Shown here: positions 1-27,674 of the stretch, piece after piece
Position numbering within the stretch: position 1 is the first letter of the stretch
How the letters are laid out: every line of letters begins with the position of its first letter
IMG/VR virus record: IMGVR_UViG_3300046777_000447
Span: 1-29,016 of that record
Source: a virus
Length of the DNA stretch: 29,016 nt
Reading direction: 5' to 3' (one strand)
Notes under the pieces: generated by a model
Seen by the model: the letters and a program-made list of their open reading frames with translations, nothing else
What the model was told of the DNA's origin: nothing
Database searches by the model: none
Translations under genes and position numbers: made by a program

Positions 1-3000
1 GCTTTAGCCTCTTTTAAATCATCTTTGTAATTTTCAATAATAGATTCTTGCTCTTCTTTAAAGTTTTCTATTTGATACTTTATTTCCTCTATCTTATCTA
101 TTTTTTCAAACTTATCTAAAGACTTATCTTTTTTAACCTCTTCAATTTCTTTCTTAACTTTTTCCTTTAACTCAGCCAATCCCTCCTTAGTGTTGCCTTG
201 CTCTATAGCTATCTCCTCTTCAATTTCTTGAATCTTGGATTCATAGTATTCAACATCTCCTTCAAGTTGAGCTATTTCTTTATCTATTTTTTCTACCTCT
301 TTAGGTTCTGTTTTAGGGGCTTCTTTAGATGGTTTAGTTTTAGCTCTTTCAAAAGCAAGAGCATTTCCTTTCTTTAAGGACTCTCTATTTTTTGCTTCTA
401 ATTCATTTATCTGAGAGATTTTTTCTTCTTCACTTAACGAATTATCTTTTTCTACTTCTTCGATTCTCTCTTCATATTTATAAGCATCATCATAATATTT
501 CTGAATTTGCTCGTCTATAGTAAGAACTTCTTCTTTCGATTCAACAGGCTTTACTTCTTCGACTCTTTCAAGAGTCTCATTAGTTCGTTGTACACCTCTA
601 TCTGTTGTTGTGTCGGCTTCTCCATACTTTTCTCTTAAATGTTTTTTAATTATTTTAACTTGTTCATCGGACAATACTTTCCCGGCCAAAGCATCTAATG
701 CCTTCATTGACTTGGGGTCATTTTTAAGGTTCATATAAACCTCGTACCCCTTTTCAGGAGTAAATTGAATATTGGCCGCCTCGTTTAGTTTTTTAAGTTT
801 TGCTTTTGATTTTTGGTATTTTTCAGGATTACTTTCCCTGTCCATTATATAGTCAATAACATCTTGAGGAGTTATCTCTGAACCAAATTGCTCAGACATT
901 TCTTGAACCCTAGCATCTAATGGAGTGGCATTTTTTTGCCCGTATTTTATATTAAATCCTTTAATGTCTTTCCTTACATTTCGGTCTCCGTATTGGTCAA
1001 AATCACTTGGCTTTATTCTTCCTAAGTTGTTGTGGATATACATGTACTTATCCATTTCCCCTTCCTCTCCTAGTCTAGTAGCCTCCATTTGAGCCTCCTG
1101 TGCCCGGTAAGCATCATACATTCCTTCAGTCTCTAACTCAGAGATAAGACTTTCGTCAATATCTCCTTGTCTAACTGCTTCATTGTAATCGTCAAGTTCT
1201 TGCTGAGTTATTTCGTCTGCTTTAGGTTCTGCTTTAGGATTCTCGTATTTAGGAGCACTTTCTTCAATCGCTTTTCCTTTTTTATTAAATTCCTCTACTG
1301 ATACAAACCTACTTGTTGGTCCTTTATTGCTGTCAAAAACGATATTATATTCTTTAGCTCCTGCAAAATTATTAACTTCTTTTATCCTTCCTTTAGCTCC
1401 ATTGAAAACCACTTCTGTCCCCGGTTTTAGCATGCCTTCAAAAGGACTTATTTCAGTTGCAAGTAATTTATCTACTGATGAAACGAGTTCAGGGTTAGTG
1501 TTATCTGCTTTAGCTTTTAAATATCTTTCATAAAAATCATCTATACTTTCCTTCTGTTCTTTTAACTTACTTAGCTCAACAGAAAGTGTCGGACTTGATT
1601 CAACTTTTCTTAATTGGTTTTTACTTGATAATGAATTAGTCTCCTCATTCATTTTCTCTCTTTCTTTAGTTTCTCTCTCTGCCTTAGTTAAAGGTTCTTT
1701 TACTGTTTTGAGAGTTCTTTGCTTAGCTTTTCTAACAGGTTTACCCGCTCGCTTAGGGGCAGCCGCTCTAGCTTCTTCTTCAATTCTGATAGCCTCGTCT
1801 GCGAGTTCGTGGGCTTGTTCGATTTGTTGCTCTGTTCCATTTTGTTCAAAGTTTTTAAGTCTTGTTTCGTAAACTATTTGGTCAGCTTGTTGACCTCTAA
1901 ATGTTCTTTTTTGTCCATCCTCAGTTTCTAAGCTAACTGTATAATTTCCGTCCTTATCTCTATTAAATGCTGATTCAGGTTCGCTATAATTGTTAACGTA
2001 TCTTTTTCCATTTACATTAACGCTATTGTCTTCGTTTAAAGATATATCAAGCTCCGCTTCTTTAGATACACCTAAGTCTTCCAATGTGGCATCTCCTGCC
2101 GAATCCAAGTCGGAGATTATATCAACAAAACCTTCAGGGGTATCTAATACCAATGTTTTGCCAATAGTGGTTAATTGTCCTTTTTGACCATCGTAAATAT
2201 ACACACCGGTTGGGTCTGTTAATGCGTCAGCTACTTTTATACTTGGGCTTATTTCTTCTTGTTCGGGAGTGATTTCAAGTTCTGTTTTGGGTGCTCCTGT
2301 CTCCATCGTTTCGCTAACTCCGGTTTCTGACTGAACAGGTATCTCTGTTGTGCTTTGCTTTTGAATGGCATCTTCTTTGGATTTATTTGTTACAAAATCA
2401 GTTAATTCGTTACTTAAAGACTCTAGCTCAGCTCTTTTTTGGTCTATTTTAACCTTAAGTTCTGCTCTGTCTGATGGGTTTTTTAAATTAGTAAAACCAT
2501 TAGATAAAGACTCTAGTTCTTTCTCTAAATCAATTATCTTGGTGTTTAACTCTCTTTTTCTTATTGCATACTCAGACATATCAAAATGGTCAGCTATAGC
2601 TGATATTTTTTTGGTGTAGATGTCTTTTGCTTCCTGAGATATGCTTTCATTATTGTTTATGTCTCTTATTAAAGAGTCTTTATTTTCTACAATATTCTTT
2701 ATATTGCGGTGGGCATCTAATTTATTTTGAATTTTTAAAGCCTCGTCTCCAAGTGTTTTCTTGACCTTTAAGTCAACTTCTTTTATTGCTGCTTCTTTTA
2801 ATTCAGTTCTAGCTGCTTCTAATTCTCTTATATCGGCTTCCGTTAGGGTTGGGTCGTATGCCAACTCTAAGTTATCTTTAGTCTCGTTTAATATTCTAGA
2901 AAATGAACTTAATGGATTATCTTTAATTACATTCTCGTAATAATGGTCTAATTCCTTATGCCCTTTGTATTGAGCGCCTACATGTAGTAAGCTAAATCCA

Positions 3001-4292
3001 ATACCCATTCCGGCCTCCATAGCTGCTTCTTCAGGGGTAATTAATCTTTGCTCCTCAATACCTGTTCTTAATGCTCTAGCTGTAGTAAATACCCCTGCAT
3101 TAGCAAGCGGCATAGCAAGCTCAGAGGCAATAGCATTGTTAACTCTAAGTTTTGTTATTTGTTTGGCTATAGTTGGAGATACTCTACCGGCAATCTCTCC
3201 TAAACCATGCATATAAATCCCTTCGCCAAATCCCTTCGCGGCTTCTTTTATGCCTTCAATATACATGTTTTCTCCTTCTTCTACATCTGCTTCAGCCATT
3301 CCTTTTACAGCACCTTTAGCTGTAAATATTTTAGTCATTGGAGCTACTGCTGCTCTTTCTAGGAATGCTGCTGCTTTTGGTGCATACTTGGCTATTACGG
3401 GAAGTGATTTTTCTGTGGCTTTTTTAGACATCGCTACTAGCTTTCCTTCTGCCGCAGCGGGGCTTCCAATATATGCTGCTGCAACTATATCAGGAATAAA
3501 GCCAATTATACCTCCAACCACATTGTTAAATACATTATCAGGAATACTTCCTTTTCTGTATTCTTCTACTGCGCTCATGCCTTTTCTTACATTGGAAGAT
3601 GCAGAGTTTAGTTTGCTTATGATTTGATTTTTTGCGTCTTGAGGAAGTGCAGAATTTATTACTTTCTTAGCAAGTTTTGCTACTTCCTGAGCTCCTTGTA
3701 CAGTCCCCGCAGTAGGTATTTGAGATATAAATGCTTTTTTTATATCATCATAAATTGTATCGTTTCCATCTTCTTCTCCTGAATCTATCAGCATGTTTTT
3801 TGCTGTATTTATCACATTATCAAGAGGTTCAAGTATGCTAGTAGTAGCATTACTAGCTTGAGCGTTAAGATAGTCGTATGTTTTTCTTACAGGAGATTCT
3901 TGACTTATACCTAATTTGCCCATTACATAATCAGGCACTAAGGTATTCGTGGCTAAAGCCTTCTTTACATTATAAGGCTTTTGTTTCTGAGTAGCCGAAG
4001 AACCATCTGCCGAAGGCGATGCCGTAGTTTCTTGAGGAGGTTTCTGAGTACCTGAGTCCGAAGAAGATTTTTTTTTTACAACCGGAGAAAATTTAAACTC
4101 AGGGAATTTAGAAAATACTTCTTCTTCAGTAGCATATTTACCGCTATTAGAAGTAGCGACAAAATCCCTCAAAGTCTGCATATCATATCCTTGTAATTCA
4201 GGGAATTTAGATAATAAAGTTTTTTCATCTGCGTATTTACCACTATTGGAAGTGGCTACAAAATCTTTAAGTGCTTGTTTTAAATCCGGCAT
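1..4292 (-). CDS. Giant internal virion (cargo/ejection) protein, N-terminal 1430 residues; runs off left edge
   Basis: Open from an ATG at 4290-4292 to the left edge without a stop; the C-terminus is missing. Residues 8-66 hold two copies of a motif (DFVATSNSGKYA, then a SKFPE ending) spaced 33 residues apart. About residues 210-400 are Ala/Gly-rich with hydrophobic stretches (such as GGIIGFIPDIVAAAYIG), which could interact with membranes. Long Glu/Lys-rich coiled-coil stretches follow. Near residues 945-1000 is an SH3/KOW-like segment (GTEVVFNGAKGRIKEV). Another segment read from about 2200 down to 1840 is beta-rich and ends in TFRGQQADQL, which reminds me of domains in phage polyvalent proteins. 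It follows the 608-residue gene by 10 bases. In crAss-like phages this position holds large proteins packed in the virion and ejected with DNA. That role is inferred by position; no catalytic domain is recognised in the visible part. Confidence 0.8.
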   Translation of the reverse strand, partial: MPDLKQALKDFVATSNSGKYADEKTLLSKFPELQGYDMQTLRDFVATSNSGKYATEEEVFSKFPEFKFSPVVKKKSSSDSGTQKPPQETTASPSADGSSATQKQKPYNVKKALATNTLVPDYVMGKLGISQESPVRKTYDYLNAQASNATTSILEPLDNVINTAKNMLIDSGEEDGNDTIYDDIKKAFISQIPTAGTVQGAQEVAKLAKKVINSALPQDAKNQIISKLNSASSNVRKGMSAVEEYRKGSIPDNVFNNVVGGIIGFIPDIVAAAYIGSPAAAEGKLVAMSKKATEKSLPVIAKYAPKAAAFLERAAVAPMTKIFTAKGAVKGMAEADVEEGENMYIEGIKEAAKGFGEGIYMHGLGEIAGRVSPTIAKQITKLRVNNAIASELAMPLANAGVFTTARALRTGIEEQRLITPEEAAMEAGMGIGFSLLHVGAQYKGHKELDHYYENVIKDNPLSSFSRILNETKDNLELAYDPTLTEADIRELEAARTELKEAAIKEVDLKVKKTLGDEALKIQNKLDAHRNIKNIVENKDSLIRDINNNESISQEAKDIYTKKISAIADHFDMSEYAIRKRELNTKIIDLEKELESLSNGFTNLKNPSDRAELKVKIDQKRAELESLSNELTDFVTNKSKEDAIQKQSTTEIPVQSETGVSETMETGAPKTELEITPEQEEISPSIKVADALTDPTGVYIYDGQKGQLTTIGKTLVLDTPEGFVDIISDLDSAGDATLEDLGVSKEAELDISLNEDNSVNVNGKRYVNNYSEPESAFNRDKDGNYTVSLETEDGQKRTFRGQQADQIVYETRLKNFEQNGTEQQIEQAHELADEAIRIEEEARAAAPKRAGKPVRKAKQRTLKTVKEPLTKAERETKEREKMNEETNSLSSKNQLRKVESSPTLSVELSKLKEQKESIDDFYERYLKAKADNTNPELVSSVDKLLATEISPFEGMLKPGTEVVFNGAKGRIKEVNNFAGAKEYNIVFDSNKGPTSRFVSVEEFNKKGKAIEESAPKYENPKAEPKADEITQQELDDYNEAVRQGDIDESLISELETEGMYDAYRAQEAQMEATRLGEEGEMDKYMYIHNNLGRIKPSDFDQYGDRNVRKDIKGFNIKYGQKNATPLDARVQEMSEQFGSEITPQDVIDYIMDRESNPEKYQKSKAKLKKLNEAANIQFTPEKGYEVYMNLKNDPKSMKALDALAGKVLSDEQVKIIKKHLREKYGEADTTTDRGVQRTNETLERVEEVKPVESKEEVLTIDEQIQKYYDDAYKYEERIEEVEKDNSLSEEEKISQINELEAKNRESLKKGNALAFERAKTKPSKEAPKTEPKEVEKIDKEIAQLEGDVEYYESKIQEIEEEIAIEQGNTKEGLAELKEKVKKEIEEVKKDKSLDKFEKIDKIEEIKYQIENFKEEQESIIENYKDDLKEAK
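4095..4271 (-). repeat. Tandem protein repeat, two copies of a 33-residue unit
   Basis: Two in-frame copies at residues 8-33 (4194-4271) and 41-66 (4095-4172) of the giant cargo protein. Twelve consecutive residues, DFVATSNSGKYA, are identical in both, followed by an acidic stretch and SKFPE. At least six of the twelve codons differ synonymously between copies, so this is an old duplication whose protein sequence is conserved rather than a recent DNA duplication. Confidence 0.85.
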
Positions 4293-4302
4293 AATTTATT
4301 TT

Positions 4303-6129
4303 TTATCTTGGTTTTCCTCCTTTTACTGTTGTTGTGGTTCCGGTTGATTTTTTTGAGTTTAGCGATTCTGTATTTATAGCGTTTGCTGACATATATTCAA
4401 TTAAAGAATTGTAAACATCATTATTAAGCTCGCCAAATTTAAACTCTCTGCTATCTATAAAAGTACCTTCCTCTTTGCCCGGAACTAATATTTTTATAAC
4501 ATCACTTCCCGGACTGCTTTCTTCTACCACTAAACCAAAGCCATCTGCATATTTAGACAGAAGTATTTTAGCTTTTTCTTCGCTCATATTTGTTACTTCA
4601 GGTTTTATATTCTCTTTTAAATATGCTGCATATCTTTGCTCTCCTGTCTGTGTAGAAGCCGCACCTTTAGAGGTATTATTGAATTTAGCGTCTTTTTTAT
4701 ATGACCCGTCTTTTGATAATGCCGAAGATACGTCTATTTGTCCCGCTAACAAAGGACCTGCTGATGCAATAAAGTCTCTTTGAGTTTTTGGTGTACCATC
4801 TGCATTTTTAAATTTAATAAAATCTTTTCTTCCATCAAAGTAAAGTAAATCAATCCCGTCAGGAGTTCTTGTGATTTCTTGGAAGATTTGTTCTCCCTTA
4901 GCGTTTTTAAGACCTTTAAAATATGTAGCAGCAGAATCAACTTGATTGTCGTTTCCATACCATAATTGCCCAATCATGTTTGTTGCTTCTTTAGCTTTCT
5001 CATCTGCTTTTTCTTGGTCTACCATCCATTGAGGCTTGTCATTTCTTTGCGTTTGACTAACTACATCAGTAGTTTCTTTATAGTCGTATTGAGACCTCAT
5101 TTGATTCCTAACAAAGCCCTCAAGCTCTTTTGTTTGAGCCTCAGACACTTTAAAACTATATTGACCTGTGTCGCTGTTGTATATTCTTAATATCTTACTA
5201 GAATCTCCCTTGGCTTCGTTTGGGTCATCTGTTACAGTATACGGCACATTATTAGCAGTTCTTTTTTTGCTATCAAAAAGCATACGGGCTTTATCTAAGT
5301 CTGTCCCCATCACTTCTTTTATAATATCATTTTCAGCATTCATGAAATTATAAATCTCTTGTTTTGTCGTGGGGTCTATATCTGTTCTTGATGTGATATC
5401 TTCTATAGTCTCTATTTTACCTTGTTTTGATAGAGTGCCTAGTTTTGATATTGTTTTCTTTTCCTCTCCTAAGCTACTTGTCCAAGCGTCAATTTTTGGT
5501 TTGTAATCATACCTATCTAGTCTGCCTAACAACAAGCCGTTTAAGGCATTTACGTTTGAAGTATTTCCCGGAGTATCATCTATTGTTTCTACTTCCTTTC
5601 CATCTACCGTTTCCTTCTTCTTTAAACCAACCATAAGAGTTCCGTTAGGAGCGATAATCCATCCCATCTTACCCCAATCTCCAAACTTCTCAGCCATAGC
5701 CGCATTAAGCATTTCTAAACCTGATGAATCTCCATTTTTAGCCCTGTCTGATATTTGCTTGAAGTTATCCTGATAAGCCTTAGCTGCATTGAAAGCCAAG
5801 TCCACATTATCGGATAGATTCTGACTGAACATCGTATAGTCTTTTACGTTGCTTCTCCCTTGTTTTAAAAGGTCGTATTGTATTCTTAATTGGTTTGATG
5901 CTTGGTCTGCTAATTTTAACGCAGCTATTCTAGCTGACTCGTGCTCTCCTAGCGGAGTGTTGGCTATCTTAGCGAACTCATCTCTAGTGGCTTTTGCAAT
6001 TGCTTCTTTTTTCTCTTCACGAACACGATTAGTTTCCGTGAGCATGTCAGACATGTTTCTACTTATGTCTGCCCAATTTACCTGTGAGTCAGCACTCCTT
6101 TCGGCATATCTATAATAAGTTTTTGCCAT
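4303..6129 (-). CDS. Internal virion / cargo-like structural protein, 608 residues
   Basis: ATG start at 6127-6129, TAA stop at 4303-4305. It lies 3 bases downstream of the 255-residue gene and 10 bases upstream of the giant cargo gene, so the three form one transcription unit. The N-terminal 140 residues (YYRYAERSADSQVNWADI onward) are charged and strongly helical, with the look of a coiled coil. The middle is mixed alpha/beta and the C-terminal tail is low-complexity Thr/Lys/Gly (about the last 15 residues). No signal peptide, membrane helix or catalytic motif is visible. Its position after the muzzle and before the giant protein matches the cargo block of crAss-like phages, so I infer a virion-packaged, probably ejected protein. 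The exact role is not known from sequence. Confidence 0.75.
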   Translation of the reverse strand: MAKTYYRYAERSADSQVNWADISRNMSDMLTETNRVREEKKEAIAKATRDEFAKIANTPLGEHESARIAALKLADQASNQLRIQYDLLKQGRSNVKDYTMFSQNLSDNVDLAFNAAKAYQDNFKQISDRAKNGDSSGLEMLNAAMAEKFGDWGKMGWIIAPNGTLMVGLKKKETVDGKEVETIDDTPGNTSNVNALNGLLLGRLDRYDYKPKIDAWTSSLGEEKKTISKLGTLSKQGKIETIEDITSRTDIDPTTKQEIYNFMNAENDIIKEVMGTDLDKARMLFDSKKRTANNVPYTVTDDPNEAKGDSSKILRIYNSDTGQYSFKVSEAQTKELEGFVRNQMRSQYDYKETTDVVSQTQRNDKPQWMVDQEKADEKAKEATNMIGQLWYGNDNQVDSAATYFKGLKNAKGEQIFQEITRTPDGIDLLYFDGRKDFIKFKNADGTPKTQRDFIASAGPLLAGQIDVSSALSKDGSYKKDAKFNNTSKGAASTQTGEQRYAAYLKENIKPEVTNMSEEKAKILLSKYADGFGLVVEESSPGSDVIKILVPGKEEGTFIDSREFKFGELNNDVYNSLIEYMSANAINTESLNSKKSTGTTTTVKGGKPR

Positions 6130-6132
6130 GTC

Positions 6133-6900
6133 TTATGTTTTTGGATACATTAATTTGTATAATTGGTTTAATTGAGATTTTGGTAAACCTGACATGTACG
6201 CCTCAAATTGATTTTGTGGCATTGCTCCTACTCCTGCTAAATTACCAAATCCTTTTTCCCCTTGAAATCCTTGAACTCTTGATTGAAAATCAGCCTGAGA
6301 CAGCTTTCCATCTTTGTTCAATTTATCGAAAGCTCTAGCTGAGCCTGTTTTCTCAAACAGAGGGACTTGAGCTAATCCTTGTTGAGCCAAAGATGTAACT
6401 CCTTCAAATCCTTGACTCATAGCGGCTGCTGAAGCCTCTTCAGCGTCTCTTGCAGCTAATTGGGCTCCTTCTGCTTCTCCCAAATCTAATTGAACGCCTA
6501 AGTCTCTTAATCGACTTTCTTCTGCAATTTGTTTGTTTTTAATATCGGTCAATTCTTTACCCATTTCTGTACGAATTCCTGCTTGTGCTTCATTTTGAGC
6601 CATCATTACCTGACCTGCTGTAGTAGCTGCCCCTCTTTCGCTTTCAACTCCTGCCTGAATAGCTTGGTTACCTGCGGACAGCATTGTCTCTCTTTGAAGT
6701 TCGTATGGCTCTTTTTGAATAGCCAACTCATCAGTATAGTTTACGCCTAATTTCTTTCTAGCTTCAGCTATTGCTTTTGCTGCATCTGCCTCAGCCTGTC
6801 TTTTAAGTTTTTCTTGTTTTGATGATTGAATAAACGAATTTACAGCACCTGCTGCTGTAATCGCCATTCCTCCTATTGCTATTGCTGTTGCTACTGCCAT
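6133..6900 (-). CDS. Putative internal virion protein with N-terminal hydrophobic helix, 255 residues
   Basis: ATG at 6898-6900, TAA at 6133-6135. Residues 2-24 (MAVATAIAIGGMAITAAGAV) form an uninterrupted hydrophobic small-residue helix without a signal-peptidase site. About residues 28-175 are an Ala/Glu/Gln-rich predicted coiled coil with many charged residues. The C-terminal part (about 180-255) is looser and contains KLNKDGKLSQAD, which resembles a dockerin/EF-hand calcium loop with the first aspartate replaced. Size, Ala-richness and hydrophobic N-terminus resemble small ejection proteins of podoviruses, and the gene sits directly ahead of the 608-residue and giant cargo genes. Role as an ejected, membrane-interacting cargo protein is inference; no homologue was checked. 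Confidence 0.7.
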   Translation of the reverse strand: MAVATAIAIGGMAITAAGAVNSFIQSSKQEKLKRQAEADAAKAIAEARKKLGVNYTDELAIQKEPYELQRETMLSAGNQAIQAGVESERGAATTAGQVMMAQNEAQAGIRTEMGKELTDIKNKQIAEESRLRDLGVQLDLGEAEGAQLAARDAEEASAAAMSQGFEGVTSLAQQGLAQVPLFEKTGSARAFDKLNKDGKLSQADFQSRVQGFQGEKGFGNLAGVGAMPQNQFEAYMSGLPKSQLNQLYKLMYPKT

Positions 6901-6901
6901 T

Positions 6902-7327
6902 TTATAGTAATTTTATCATTTCACTTGTGTATGCGTCTCCTTTGATATATCCGAGTTCTTCATACGTTTGAATTAAACTTTTGTTTTTAATCAAAGCATA
7001 AGCATACTTTCCTCCTGACTTTTTGCTTATATTGGTAAGAGTTGATATCAATAGTTTTAATGCTTTTTTTCTTTTAGATTCCCCTGCATCATCTTTACCT
7101 CTATATTCTTTATTTGATATAATCCAATCTACCCAAGCAACGCTTGAGTTTGTAACGTATATAAATCCTGCACAAATAGGGACATCTCCATCGTAAACTA
7201 TCATTCCTCCTGTTCCGTTCTCAGGCAAAAAATCTTTAGCGGGCGCAGTCCAATTCCATTGAGACCACCATCCTGTAAGGATTTCTTCATAATCATTTTC
7301 ATTAAGAGGTCTGATTTTTAATTCCAT
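6902..7327 (-). CDS. GNAT-like N-acetyltransferase, 141 residues
   Basis: ATG at 7325-7327, TAA at 6902-6904, one base before the 255-residue gene. The length and pattern fit a single GNAT domain: an N-terminal strand-helix (IRPLNENDYEEIL), central strands (GGMIVYDG, ICAGFIYVT), a cofactor-loop-like segment (EYRGKDDAGESKRKKALKLL) and a C-terminal helix with ELGYIKGD. The usual R/Q-x-x-G-x-G/A acetyl-CoA loop is altered (RGKDDAG), so activity is uncertain. It would transfer an acetyl group from acetyl-CoA to an unknown amine. It lies between tail and cargo genes, so it is expressed late. The target could be a virion protein or a host protein; nothing in the sequence decides this. Confidence 0.6.
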   Translation of the reverse strand: MELKIRPLNENDYEEILTGWWSQWNWTAPAKDFLPENGTGGMIVYDGDVPICAGFIYVTNSSVAWVDWIISNKEYRGKDDAGESKRKKALKLLISTLTNISKKSGGKYAYALIKNKSLIQTYEELGYIKGDAYTSEMIKLL

Positions 7328-25338: not shown

Positions 25339-25512
25339 TTAATTTGGTTTTTGATCATACCAACTCCACCCATCTATAGGGTATTCGTAAGTATCTTTCA
25401 GTTCTTTTACTAATTCAAAGTCAGGACCATAAACAAAGTTAGGAGCATGCACCCAACTTCCATCCTCAAATTGTTTATAGAATCCGCTATCGTCTATCCC
25501 GTTATTGTCCAT
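25339..25512 (-). CDS. Small acidic Trp/Tyr-rich protein, 57 residues, function unknown
   Basis: Reads from ATG at 25510-25512, which overlaps the end of the LRR gene by 19 bases in another frame, to TAA at 25339-25341, five bases before the 75-residue gene. It fills what would otherwise be a 160-base gap in a gapless operon. The sequence starts MDNNGIDDSGFYKQFEDGSW, continues with HAPNFVYGPDFELVKELKDT and ends in GWSWYDQKPN. It is acidic and aromatic, with three Trp and five Tyr in 57 residues, a composition unlike random AT-rich translation. AAAAGG directly abuts the ATG. Coding status is supported by gap filling, start and stop placement and composition; function is unknown. Confidence 0.65.
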   Translation of the reverse strand: MDNNGIDDSGFYKQFEDGSWVHAPNFVYGPDFELVKELKDTYEYPIDGWSWYDQKPN

Positions 25513-27674
25513 CCTTTTGAAGTTATAATTAATCTATTTGCAGCGGTCAATCCTGCTGCCCCTGTTGCTCCTGTGATATTTATTGTCTTACTTACCACGT
25601 TTCCTTGTGCTGCAATATCGTTGAATAGAGTAACAAGTGCTGATGTTGAAAGCGATGTATAAGATATATTTATTTGAGGGGAAACTCCTGTCCATTGTCC
25701 TGCGCTTGTATTTAATAATCTTAATGAGTTTAATAAATGATACGATGTACTTGCTCCATTAATAACTAATAAAGAAAATGGACAATTAAAAGAAAGAGAT
25801 GTAATTTGATTTATATTTGTATTATTTCCTGCATCAACTAATGGTGTTGCTGTTAAACTTCCTAACTTATCTAAGTTTGTAATTGTTGTCAAACCTCCAC
25901 ATTTTATAAATGTAGTTACCAATGATGTTAGAGACGATGTTTGCGTTGTCGGCAGTGTTAATGTTTTTAATGAATGACAATCCCCAAATGCAAGCGCATA
26001 ATTTGTTAGGGAAGTAGAAACAGTCGCAGGCATTGTTATTGTTTTCAAAGAAATACAGTTATTAAAAGTACTCGAAAATGATGTGCAGGATGACATAGAT
26101 GTTGGAAGCGTAACTGAAGTTAATTTATAACACCCATTAAATGCGCTTACCATAGACACACAGTTATTCATCGTACTTGGTAGTATTATAGATGTTAAAC
26201 TTGTACAGCCTGTAAAAGCAGTTGTCATCGCTGTAACGCCTGTCATACTTGTTGGTAGTGTTAACGTCTCAAGCGAATTACATCCATTAAATGCAGACGT
26301 TAAAATCGTTATATTATTCTGAGTATTATTTGGAAGTGATATTGTTTTTATAGTAGTACATCCAAGAAACATATTCGTGCAATCAGTTATATTATATGAT
26401 GATGGTATAACCATAGATTCAAGAGATACACACCCATTAAATGTATTACTAAAGCTTGTAGTCGCGGCAGTACACGCAGGTAAAATTACACCACTTAAAC
26501 TAACGCAGTTTTGAAAAGCTCCTGCTAAAGTTGTTGTTGCCCAAGTTGTTGGTAATATAACTGTATTTAAACTAAAACAGGAATTAAAAATATTATTTGC
26601 TGCTGTTATATTCATATTGCTTGGAAGCACAACTGTCTTTAAATTATAACAAGAGTTAAACATTGATGCACACGCATATGTAGATGACACATTTGCAGAT
26701 GATGGTAAATAAACATTTTGTAAACTGTTACAAGCGTTAAACATTGAAGCGCAGTCAATAAGTCCTGATGCAGTTGGAAAAGATGTTATCTTAACCCACT
26801 CTAATGACACGCAGCTATTAAACATTGCTGCAAGAGATGTAGCAGAGTTTATACTTGTTATCGTTATACTCTTTAACGATTCGCAACTTTGAAAAGCACT
26901 TGAAAATGATGTTACACTATTTAAGTTAGGTGGTAGCTGAATTGATTTTAAATTAATACAACCACTAAAAGCATTTGCGAAACCCGTAACTGAGTTCATA
27001 TCTTGTGGCAGTATAACTTCTCTTAAGTTAAAGCAGTTTGAAAATAAATTTACTACAGAAGTTACTGATGGAGCTGATGTTGGCATTACAACTTTGCCAA
27101 GACTGTAGCATTGGTTAAAAAAATTAACCATCTGAGACCATAAAACTATAGGAGGAAACTTAACATATTCTAAGTATTCATATGTTGCTATTGCTCCACT
27201 CGCGGTACCTGAAGCGTATGAGTTTAATATGTTAGCAGTTATCGTGTTGTCCCCATAATACGACTCAAGCAAGCCCATATTGTAAAAAGTTGACCTACCT
27301 GTTGCAACAGGTGCTACAGGCACGCAGTATGTTATCTTACAGGTTGCATCTCCATACACCCTAACCTTGAAAGTTGTATAACCCCTTGAGCAAGGAGTAC
27401 CTGTACCTATAGCATAAGTGTGCGATGTGTCAGTAGATGTCGCGGTAGATATTGTGTCTATCGGTGTTCCATCTCCCCAATCAATATAAATGTTAGTGCC
27501 ACTATTCTTTGTAAATATTGTACGAATAGTAAACGCAGCAATACCTGTGTCAGCCATAAGGAATTGTACCTCGTCTGACGAGTCAGTTATAACAGGCCAA
27601 TCGGCAGGTCTTACCCAATCAGTTGGAGTAGGTTTCGGTTTAAAGTACGCTTGTATTGGTAATCTTACTGCCAT
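25494..27674 (-). CDS. BspA-type leucine-rich-repeat protein with PKD-like N-terminal domain, 726 residues
   Basis: ATG at 27672-27674 overlaps the fibre gene stop by 10 bases; TAG at 25494-25496. Residues 35-120 contain IYIDWGDGT (66-70 WGDGT), a PKD-like beta-sandwich hallmark. About residues 185-575 hold 17 repeats of roughly 23 residues with the pattern F-x-x-C-x-S/N-L-x-x-V/I-x-L-P, as in BspA/DUF285 leucine-rich repeats of Bacteroidota and gut parasites. A Cys occupies the same position in all 17. The last 100 residues end in a typical closing segment (LFNDIAAQG, TINITGATGAAGLT, KGWTITG). No signal peptide. In a phage late operon next to a fibre gene it is most simply a surface adhesion or receptor-binding protein of the virion; a head fibre or host-modifying protein is an alternative. 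Confidence 0.8.
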   Translation of the reverse strand: MAVRLPIQAYFKPKPTPTDWVRPADWPVITDSSDEVQFLMADTGIAAFTIRTIFTKNSGTNIYIDWGDGTPIDTISTATSTDTSHTYAIGTGTPCSRGYTTFKVRVYGDATCKITYCVPVAPVATGRSTFYNMGLLESYYGDNTITANILNSYASGTASGAIATYEYLEYVKFPPIVLWSQMVNFFNQCYSLGKVVMPTSAPSVTSVVNLFSNCFNLREVILPQDMNSVTGFANAFSGCINLKSIQLPPNLNSVTSFSSAFQSCESLKSITITSINSATSLAAMFNSCVSLEWVKITSFPTASGLIDCASMFNACNSLQNVYLPSSANVSSTYACASMFNSCYNLKTVVLPSNMNITAANNIFNSCFSLNTVILPTTWATTTLAGAFQNCVSLSGVILPACTAATTSFSNTFNGCVSLESMVIPSSYNITDCTNMFLGCTTIKTISLPNNTQNNITILTSAFNGCNSLETLTLPTSMTGVTAMTTAFTGCTSLTSIILPSTMNNCVSMVSAFNGCYKLTSVTLPTSMSSCTSFSSTFNNCISLKTITMPATVSTSLTNYALAFGDCHSLKTLTLPTTQTSSLTSLVTTFIKCGGLTTITNLDKLGSLTATPLVDAGNNTNINQITSLSFNCPFSLLVINGASTSYHLLNSLRLLNTSAGQWTGVSPQINISYTSLSTSALVTLFNDIAAQGNVVSKTINITGATGAAGLTAANRLIITSKGWTITG
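25877..27125 (-). repeat. LRR array, about 17 units of 69-72 bases
   Basis: Each unit encodes a variant of MFNSCVSLEWVKIT or AFNGCNSLETLTLP. Phe, Cys and Leu positions are kept in nearly every unit while intervening residues vary, and DNA identity between units is modest. The ladder of regularly spaced Cys would stack along one side of the solenoid. Confidence 0.8.

Follow-up and report, generated by a model that had tools for sequence, protein, structure and literature searches.

The window analyzed here, the whole 29,016-nucleotide stretch of DNA, constitutes an independent virus record of 29 kb. A very large open reading frame (ORF), referred to below as the giant gene, begins on the minus strand at position 4292 and continues to the window end. 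The following features are relevant to this study:

3–4292, minus strand: giant gene (0 frame), 1430 codons, N-terminus at 4292, runs off the window end; architecture matches that of 43 contigs
4185–4271, minus strand: module unit 1, residues 8–36, with DFVATSNSGKYA at 4230–4265; AlphaFold helices at residues 2–17 and 23–29
4095–4172, minus strand: module unit 2, residues 41–66, with DFVATSNSGKYA at 4131–4166; AlphaFold helices at residues 38–50 and 56–62
4068–4077, minus strand: A10 run on the coding strand, encoding KKK (residues 73–75); predicted slippage or −1 frameshift site
3970–4077, minus strand: −1 frame tail KKKIFFGLRYSETSSRNYGIAFGRWFFGYSETKAL, stop codon at 3970–3972
3994–4026, minus strand: conserved −1 motif YGIAFGRWFFG, within the −1 tail
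3970–4292, minus strand: predicted short frameshift product, 107 aa, consisting of module, KKK and −1 tail
4303–6129, minus strand: upstream gene, 608 aa, at the position of crAss001 cargo protein 2 (by synteny only), directly preceding the giant gene in relatives
6133–6900, minus strand: upstream gene, 255 aa, PHROG virion structural protein, at the position of crAss001 cargo protein 1

The initial annotation described a motif, DFVATSNSGKYA, occurring twice at an interval of 33 residues, with each copy followed by an acidic stretch and SKFPE, and translation of the minus-strand ORF bore this out. The copies occupy residues 10–21 (window 4265–4230) and 43–54 (4166–4131); beyond them the units run on as ADEKTLLSKFPEL and ATEEEVFSKFPEF, and both units together span residues 8–66 (4095–4271). 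The "at least six" codons said to differ between the copies were exactly 6 of 12 (V, A, S, S, Y and A). Orthologous units of different phages shared approximately 83% amino acid (aa) identity for each of the two units, and 40–43% of the codons for identical residues differed synonymously between them. Codon divergence of the extent seen inside the window is therefore ordinary, and points to an old duplication under protein-level selection and to nothing beyond that. The claim of conservation at the protein level was likewise sustained, the pair being kept at the N-terminus of the giant gene in related phages.

The module pair was encoded by 43 viral contigs, each with two units, in all cases at the extreme N-terminus of a giant gene, and no unrelated protein with the motif was found. 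Considering this constant placement and the 27 invariant columns in the module alignment (over 27 loci), the pair is more than a chance resemblance. Complete, intact-looking giant genes with the module mostly encode 2290–3313 aa and adjoin an upstream gene of approximately 450–650 aa. The module is a tandem helical hairpin of 66 aa, for which AlphaFold predicted four helices forming two hairpins in the window protein (mean pLDDT, 81.5). Searches of Pfam, NCBIfam, PHROGs and the PDB by sequence and fold gave no significant match to the module; the best Foldseek hit in the PDB had an E-value of 4.4, with no convincing known fold. A protein scan of the cellular genomes in genome_contigs confirmed no module relative, and tblastn against isolated phages returned a single weak match (E = 0.9). 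In four relatives (L129, L144, L155 and L157), an extra gene of 472–526 aa between the two small cargo-like genes carries a tandem module of the same kind at its N-terminus, and thus represents a second module-bearing protein within one genome; neither a long A-run at the junction nor a −1 tail was found in these extra genes.

Upstream of the giant gene, PHROG matches were obtained to terminase, portal, GroES-like, capsid-type and other virion structural proteins. The capsid-type protein shared 70% identity with that of MW202828 (Manatee Spring), 51% with that of Maribacter phage Panino and 46% with those of the Flavobacterium elemo phages, and also matched Cellulophaga phages, including the phi38:1 group (Pervagoviridae). 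The module carriers are uncultured relatives of Flavobacterium and Cellulophaga podoviruses. In the elemo phages and phi38:1, the counterparts of the giant carry structural-protein annotations. The assignment of the pair to a giant cargo gene in the initial annotation agrees with this setting, in which the gene lies after portal, capsid-type and other virion genes and has counterparts annotated as structural. Phage polyvalent proteins and the cargo proteins of crAss001 are large and are predicted or shown to be carried in the virion and injected (PMC5512222, PMC10172136); the virions of crAss001 were found to contain gp45, gp46, gp47, gp49 and gp50 (PMC10172136). Gene order past the muzzle-type gene resembles that of crAss001 gp44–gp47. 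Single comparisons of the giants with gp47 detected no similarity (best E-values, 0.041 for the relative L068 and 0.13 for the window protein). As in polyvalent proteins, an ART-PolyVal domain scored above the cut-off in the giants of two relatives, L068 and L071, which fits giants that enter the host by injection and act there (PMC5512222). No polyvalent effector domain scored above the cut-off in the cut window protein or in four further relatives (L033, L041, L045 and L063), and a catalytic domain search with the cut window protein gave no match.

Other relatives were reached via a conserved upstream gene, not via the module. Their giants start with quite different short modules, most of which are also tandem pairs, such as VINDLYSRAKSKGYTKSREEFVNLL, ALKDSYDVFVSNGYTKSFDEYKKLI, LQKLYDVLVREGKYTKSFDEF and KYPQYANVDDLTLAKKMVEKYPQY. 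The VINDLYSRAKSKGYTKSREEFVNLL and ALKDSYDVFVSNGYTKSFDEYKKLI modules form a single family in a gap-free alignment. This family has a relationship to the YLQDLYALIK types (hhalign, 97.6%) and is also predicted to form four helices (pLDDT, 87.5); a relation of the window-type module to these types is unproven (26%). Among 25 locus pairs in which both flanks were at least 72% identical, module identity was bimodal, being 16–21% in five pairs and at least 73% in the remainder. In these five pairs, the flanks were 78–87% identical and the module was completely different; the module is exchanged as a whole.

The initial annotation regarded the tandem motif as a packaging or docking signal, for example for portal or scaffold, that takes the giant into the head. 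Capsid-targeting peptides are known to direct proteins into the head of T4, and the extreme N-terminal place, the strong conservation and the gene order among virion genes would all suit such a role. However, since unrelated modules occupy the same place beside very similar flanking genes, the exact residues of DFVATSNSGKYA are no universal signal for a conserved portal or scaffold, and a specific docking motif was not supported; at best, the general architecture could serve, not DFVATSNSGKYA itself. The expectation that related phages would carry copies held for some relatives, whereas others have an unrelated replacement. A packaging signal would also leave the −1 tail unexplained, although it is compatible with a frameshift, and we consider it doubtful. 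Somewhat less probable still, and in our opinion rather unlikely, is a module that faces the host, meeting a varying bacterial partner after injection and being replaced in an arms race, with the short product as a second injected or early effector. Whole-module replacement amid conserved surroundings and the ART-PolyVal domain in two relatives speak for this possibility, but conservation within one module type is very strong, with no rapid diversification, and no host partner is known.

In the window, the A10 run encoding KKK, which escaped the initial annotation along with the −1 reading frame behind it, lies 19 residues past the second copy of DFVATSNSGKYA. An uninterrupted run of A9–A12 followed the module in 78 of 81 distinct N-termini, one run in each. 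Only nine other coding-strand runs of A≥9 were present in the 1.34 Mb surveyed (87 in total). The Lys codons at the site were 230 AAA and 4 AAG, compared with 9425:4740 in all giants and 144:114 at other KKK sequences. Selection against polymerase slippage becomes evident at approximately nine A/T in a large share of bacterial genomes (PMC1088944). Three type-A loci lacked the A-run: two of them (L073 and L075) show no tail, and the third (L035) a degenerate one. In L075, whose module pair is divergently related to that of the window, the junction after KFPEFF has a run of prolines and no KKK. RNA folding 3′ of the site revealed no strong structure (mean z, −0.21 for A-run loci and −0.77 for the G GGA AAN loci described below); a stimulatory structure is frequent in ribosomal frameshifting and dispensable for poly-A slippage.

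Reading one base back at the run leads into a conserved tail, [YF]G[IFLV]x[FI]Gx[WY]F[FI]G, followed by a stop codon a few residues later. After KKK, the −1 frame remained open for a median of 31 codons, compared with a median of 4 at control positions in the same genes. Substitutions were compared in 112 pairs from 47 loci, aligned by distance from the run end alone. In the overlap, differences at giant-frame codon positions 1, 2 and 3 were 0.149, 0.323 and 0.204, whereas the corresponding values were 0.124, 0.060 and 0.272 in the module and 0.175, 0.133 and 0.272 just downstream. Every change at giant-frame position 2 alters the giant protein, whereas in the −1 frame the same base falls at the wobble position. 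When loci were bootstrapped, position 2 was the most variable in 1999 of 2000 replicates, and twenty disjoint pairs gave 87, 177 and 108 differences at positions 1, 2 and 3. In the overlap, amino acid identity was highest for the −1 frame (0.71), ahead of the giant frame (0.60) and the third frame (0.57), and at one tail position TGG alternated with TAY (Trp with Tyr), never with a stop codon. These data indicate that the −1 frame behind the site is under protein-coding selection. This statement rests on the distance-aligned pairs and the bootstrap, as wobble figures anchored on the motif are partly forced by the choice of motif.

The −1 ORF of the run loci opens a median of 4 codons 5′ of the run, and contains no ATG ahead of the tail in any of the 78 run loci, nor in 55 of 56 others. 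Because of this late opening and the lack of an ATG in 78/78 loci, a frame change is by far the likeliest entry into the −1 ORF. Across loci, the predicted short product would be 67–130 aa long; its module would be acidic (median charge, −3) and its tail basic (median, +6).

One may suppose that the shift merely limits the amount of the giant and that the −1 tail is a degradation signal that clears the aborted product. C-terminal tails can be degrons, and the tail does stop within a few residues of the aromatic motif; an 11-residue motif with fixed Gly, aromatics and spacing nevertheless exceeds the needs of a degron, making this reading quite improbable. It is very unlikely that the −1 frame is a mere shadow of selection on the giant's Ser-rich linker (SPSEDGSS) or on the nucleic acid, with no second protein, because, although the linker is recognizable in the giant frame of many loci, the variability of position 2 is the reverse of that of any single-frame protein, identity is highest in the −1 frame and the TGG/TAY alternation avoids stop codons.

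We attach the same very low probability to the view that the run is a phase-variable contingency locus, at which replication alters the number of A residues, so that the giant is switched on in some phages of a population and off in others. Indels arise readily in long A-runs, and one isolate can be read in this way. Among isolated phages, Manatee has A11, elemo A10, phi38:1 A10 and Panino A9. In Panino (L078), just upstream of 13718 on the minus strand, the module ORF and the giant ORF lie in different frames across A9; in this record, one extra A leads into the giant and one A less into ...FWGIRGRKWFIGFFRPEGGGWFFGISRKSD and a stop codon. The frame break is either a homopolymer sequencing error or a property of a phage that needs a frame change for the giant. 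The annotated giant of Panino has a GTG start that leaves the module out. However, nearly all other run lengths leave the giant in frame, and the elemo stretch containing A10 is 100% identical in most of 68 records; the elemo run is therefore neither assembly noise nor a hypervariable switch. Selection on the −1 tail and the presence of G GGA AAN in place of the run in many relatives also argue against a contingency locus. The −1 tail of Manatee ends in YCIKLGRYSICIERKY and a stop codon, which we read as a divergent copy of the tail motif. The −1 frames of phi38:1 (FGIEFYLWSGSFKFGWFRL) and elemo (NNWGFGIFCWER) are open and aromatic-rich, with no clear motif match.

A DNA pattern of the tail alone, blind to the A-run, was scanned over viral_contigs and detected at least 119 viral loci. 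Among the matches listed, all 119 were in the −1 frame of a longer ORF; 61 of them had a run of A≥8 within 160 nt upstream (61/61 in the −1 frame), and in the 58 without a run the longer ORF again began with a short module. An in-phase G GGA AAN was present in 29 of the 56 unique run-less loci listed, where 0.12 were expected from the rest of these genes. One form of this sequence, G GGA AAG, is the shift site of lambda gpG/gpGT. Twelve run-less loci among the matches listed had no in-phase G GGA AAN, AAAAAA or TTTT. T TTT was rejected as a third slippery type, because it was not enriched (15 loci against approximately 17 expected matches). The −1 wobble signal was absent 5′ of the tail motif in the run-less loci, so that coding is unproven in that part. 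In many run-less loci (within L163–L280), the −1 stretch from the slippery site to the tail is rich in Cys, Gly and Arg, as in GKDKRLCECGSKCGV. The same pattern gave eight matches in genome_contigs, of which three (L282, L285 and L287) look like chance and one (L284) is ambiguous; the remaining four (L281, L283, L286 and L288) look genuine, and the sequences, on metagenome-assembled bins, are probably phage contigs.

As a whole, the best explanation, in which we have considerable confidence, is that one gene yields a giant protein and a protein of approximately 100 aa with a common module by means of a −1 shift. Straight reading through A10 would give the giant protein, which is probably carried in the virion and injected. 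Moving back by one base at the run, through an additional transcribed A or a −1 ribosomal slip, would give the protein of approximately 107 aa, in which the acidic module is fused to a basic, aromatic, glycine-rich tail (YGIxFGxWFxG) and which ends at once. For A9–A12, transcriptional slippage would be the simplest mechanism, and for G GGA AAG a ribosomal −1 shift. The helical-hairpin pair would then be an exchangeable N-terminal module common to two proteins of one gene. That the shift occurs at a useful frequency, by which machinery, and what the short protein does, we infer from sequence.

Frameshifted twin products are of a known kind. Searches of open-access literature on crAss-like, Cellulophaga and Bacteroidetes phages yielded no account of the present frameshift, and none of the annotations found mentions a short −1 product. 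In Thermus thermophilus dnaX (tau/gamma), an A9 run lies inside the ORF, and standard reading gives the long product, whereas slipped transcripts encode a shorter form that shares its N-terminus (PMC1088944, PMC5009743). The predicted phage arrangement is alike in all these respects; however, slipped dnaX mRNAs reach nearby stop codons with no extensive new coding, whereas the phage −1 frame encodes a conserved tail, and phage relatives use G GGA AAN in place of the run. The lambda tail assembly chaperone gpG/gpGT also depends on a −1 shift, in a virion-gene context of a tailed phage, and its products have a common N-terminus (PMC5009743). The arrangement predicted here has these traits as well, and G GGA AAN recurs in at least 29 of the 56 run-less loci. 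In contrast, the shifted product of lambda is the longer one and serves the tape measure, whereas the shifted product predicted here is far shorter than the standard one, the giant protein of a podovirus lineage. The giant's neighbors matched portal, terminase and virion structural PHROGs, and no tape measure model was matched, several genes having no named function. In potyvirus P3N-PIPO, polymerase slippage on a short A-run gives access to a small −1 ORF overlapping a very large ORF (PMC4552492, PMC4761962), similar to the predicted phage arrangement but in an RNA virus of plants, at a GAAAAAA site and with no sequence relation.

By analogy with the shared-N-terminus pairs of lambda and dnaX, the most likely role of the short protein would be that of the giant's partner via the common module, and we tentatively suggest that its conserved tail sets the giant's dose or helps loading. 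With similar reserve, one can picture a widespread group of uncultured aquatic podoviruses that make a dedicated accessory protein of approximately 100 aa by a programmed −1 shift inside the gene for a giant injected protein, the two products having a common exchangeable module, two unrelated slippery devices (poly-A and G GGA AAN) being used, and the short form possibly loading or metering the giant in the virion. The main alternative to a metering or loading partner is a host-facing role of both products. With the predicted short product, a common group of aquatic viruses would gain a conserved phage protein that has so far gone unannotated, and the giant gene would be a virion-type gene with built-in dual coding. 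One second product would be reached by two different slippery sites within one virus group, as for dnaX across bacteria. Similar phages, moreover, differ by replacement of an entire N-terminal module. The short product, its conserved tail and the recodable run offer a handle on the dosing, head loading and ejection of very large phage proteins.

Two other genes of the window were observed on the minus strand. A small gene at 6902–7327 (PHROG 17252) occurs in the same place in nearly all relatives, and its Manatee counterpart is named as an N-terminal acetyltransferase subunit. The product of the gene at 25494–27674, beside structural genes, is 726 aa long, contains leucine-rich repeats of the BspA type (Pfam LRR_5, E = 2.3e-47) and is perhaps a host-binding protein.
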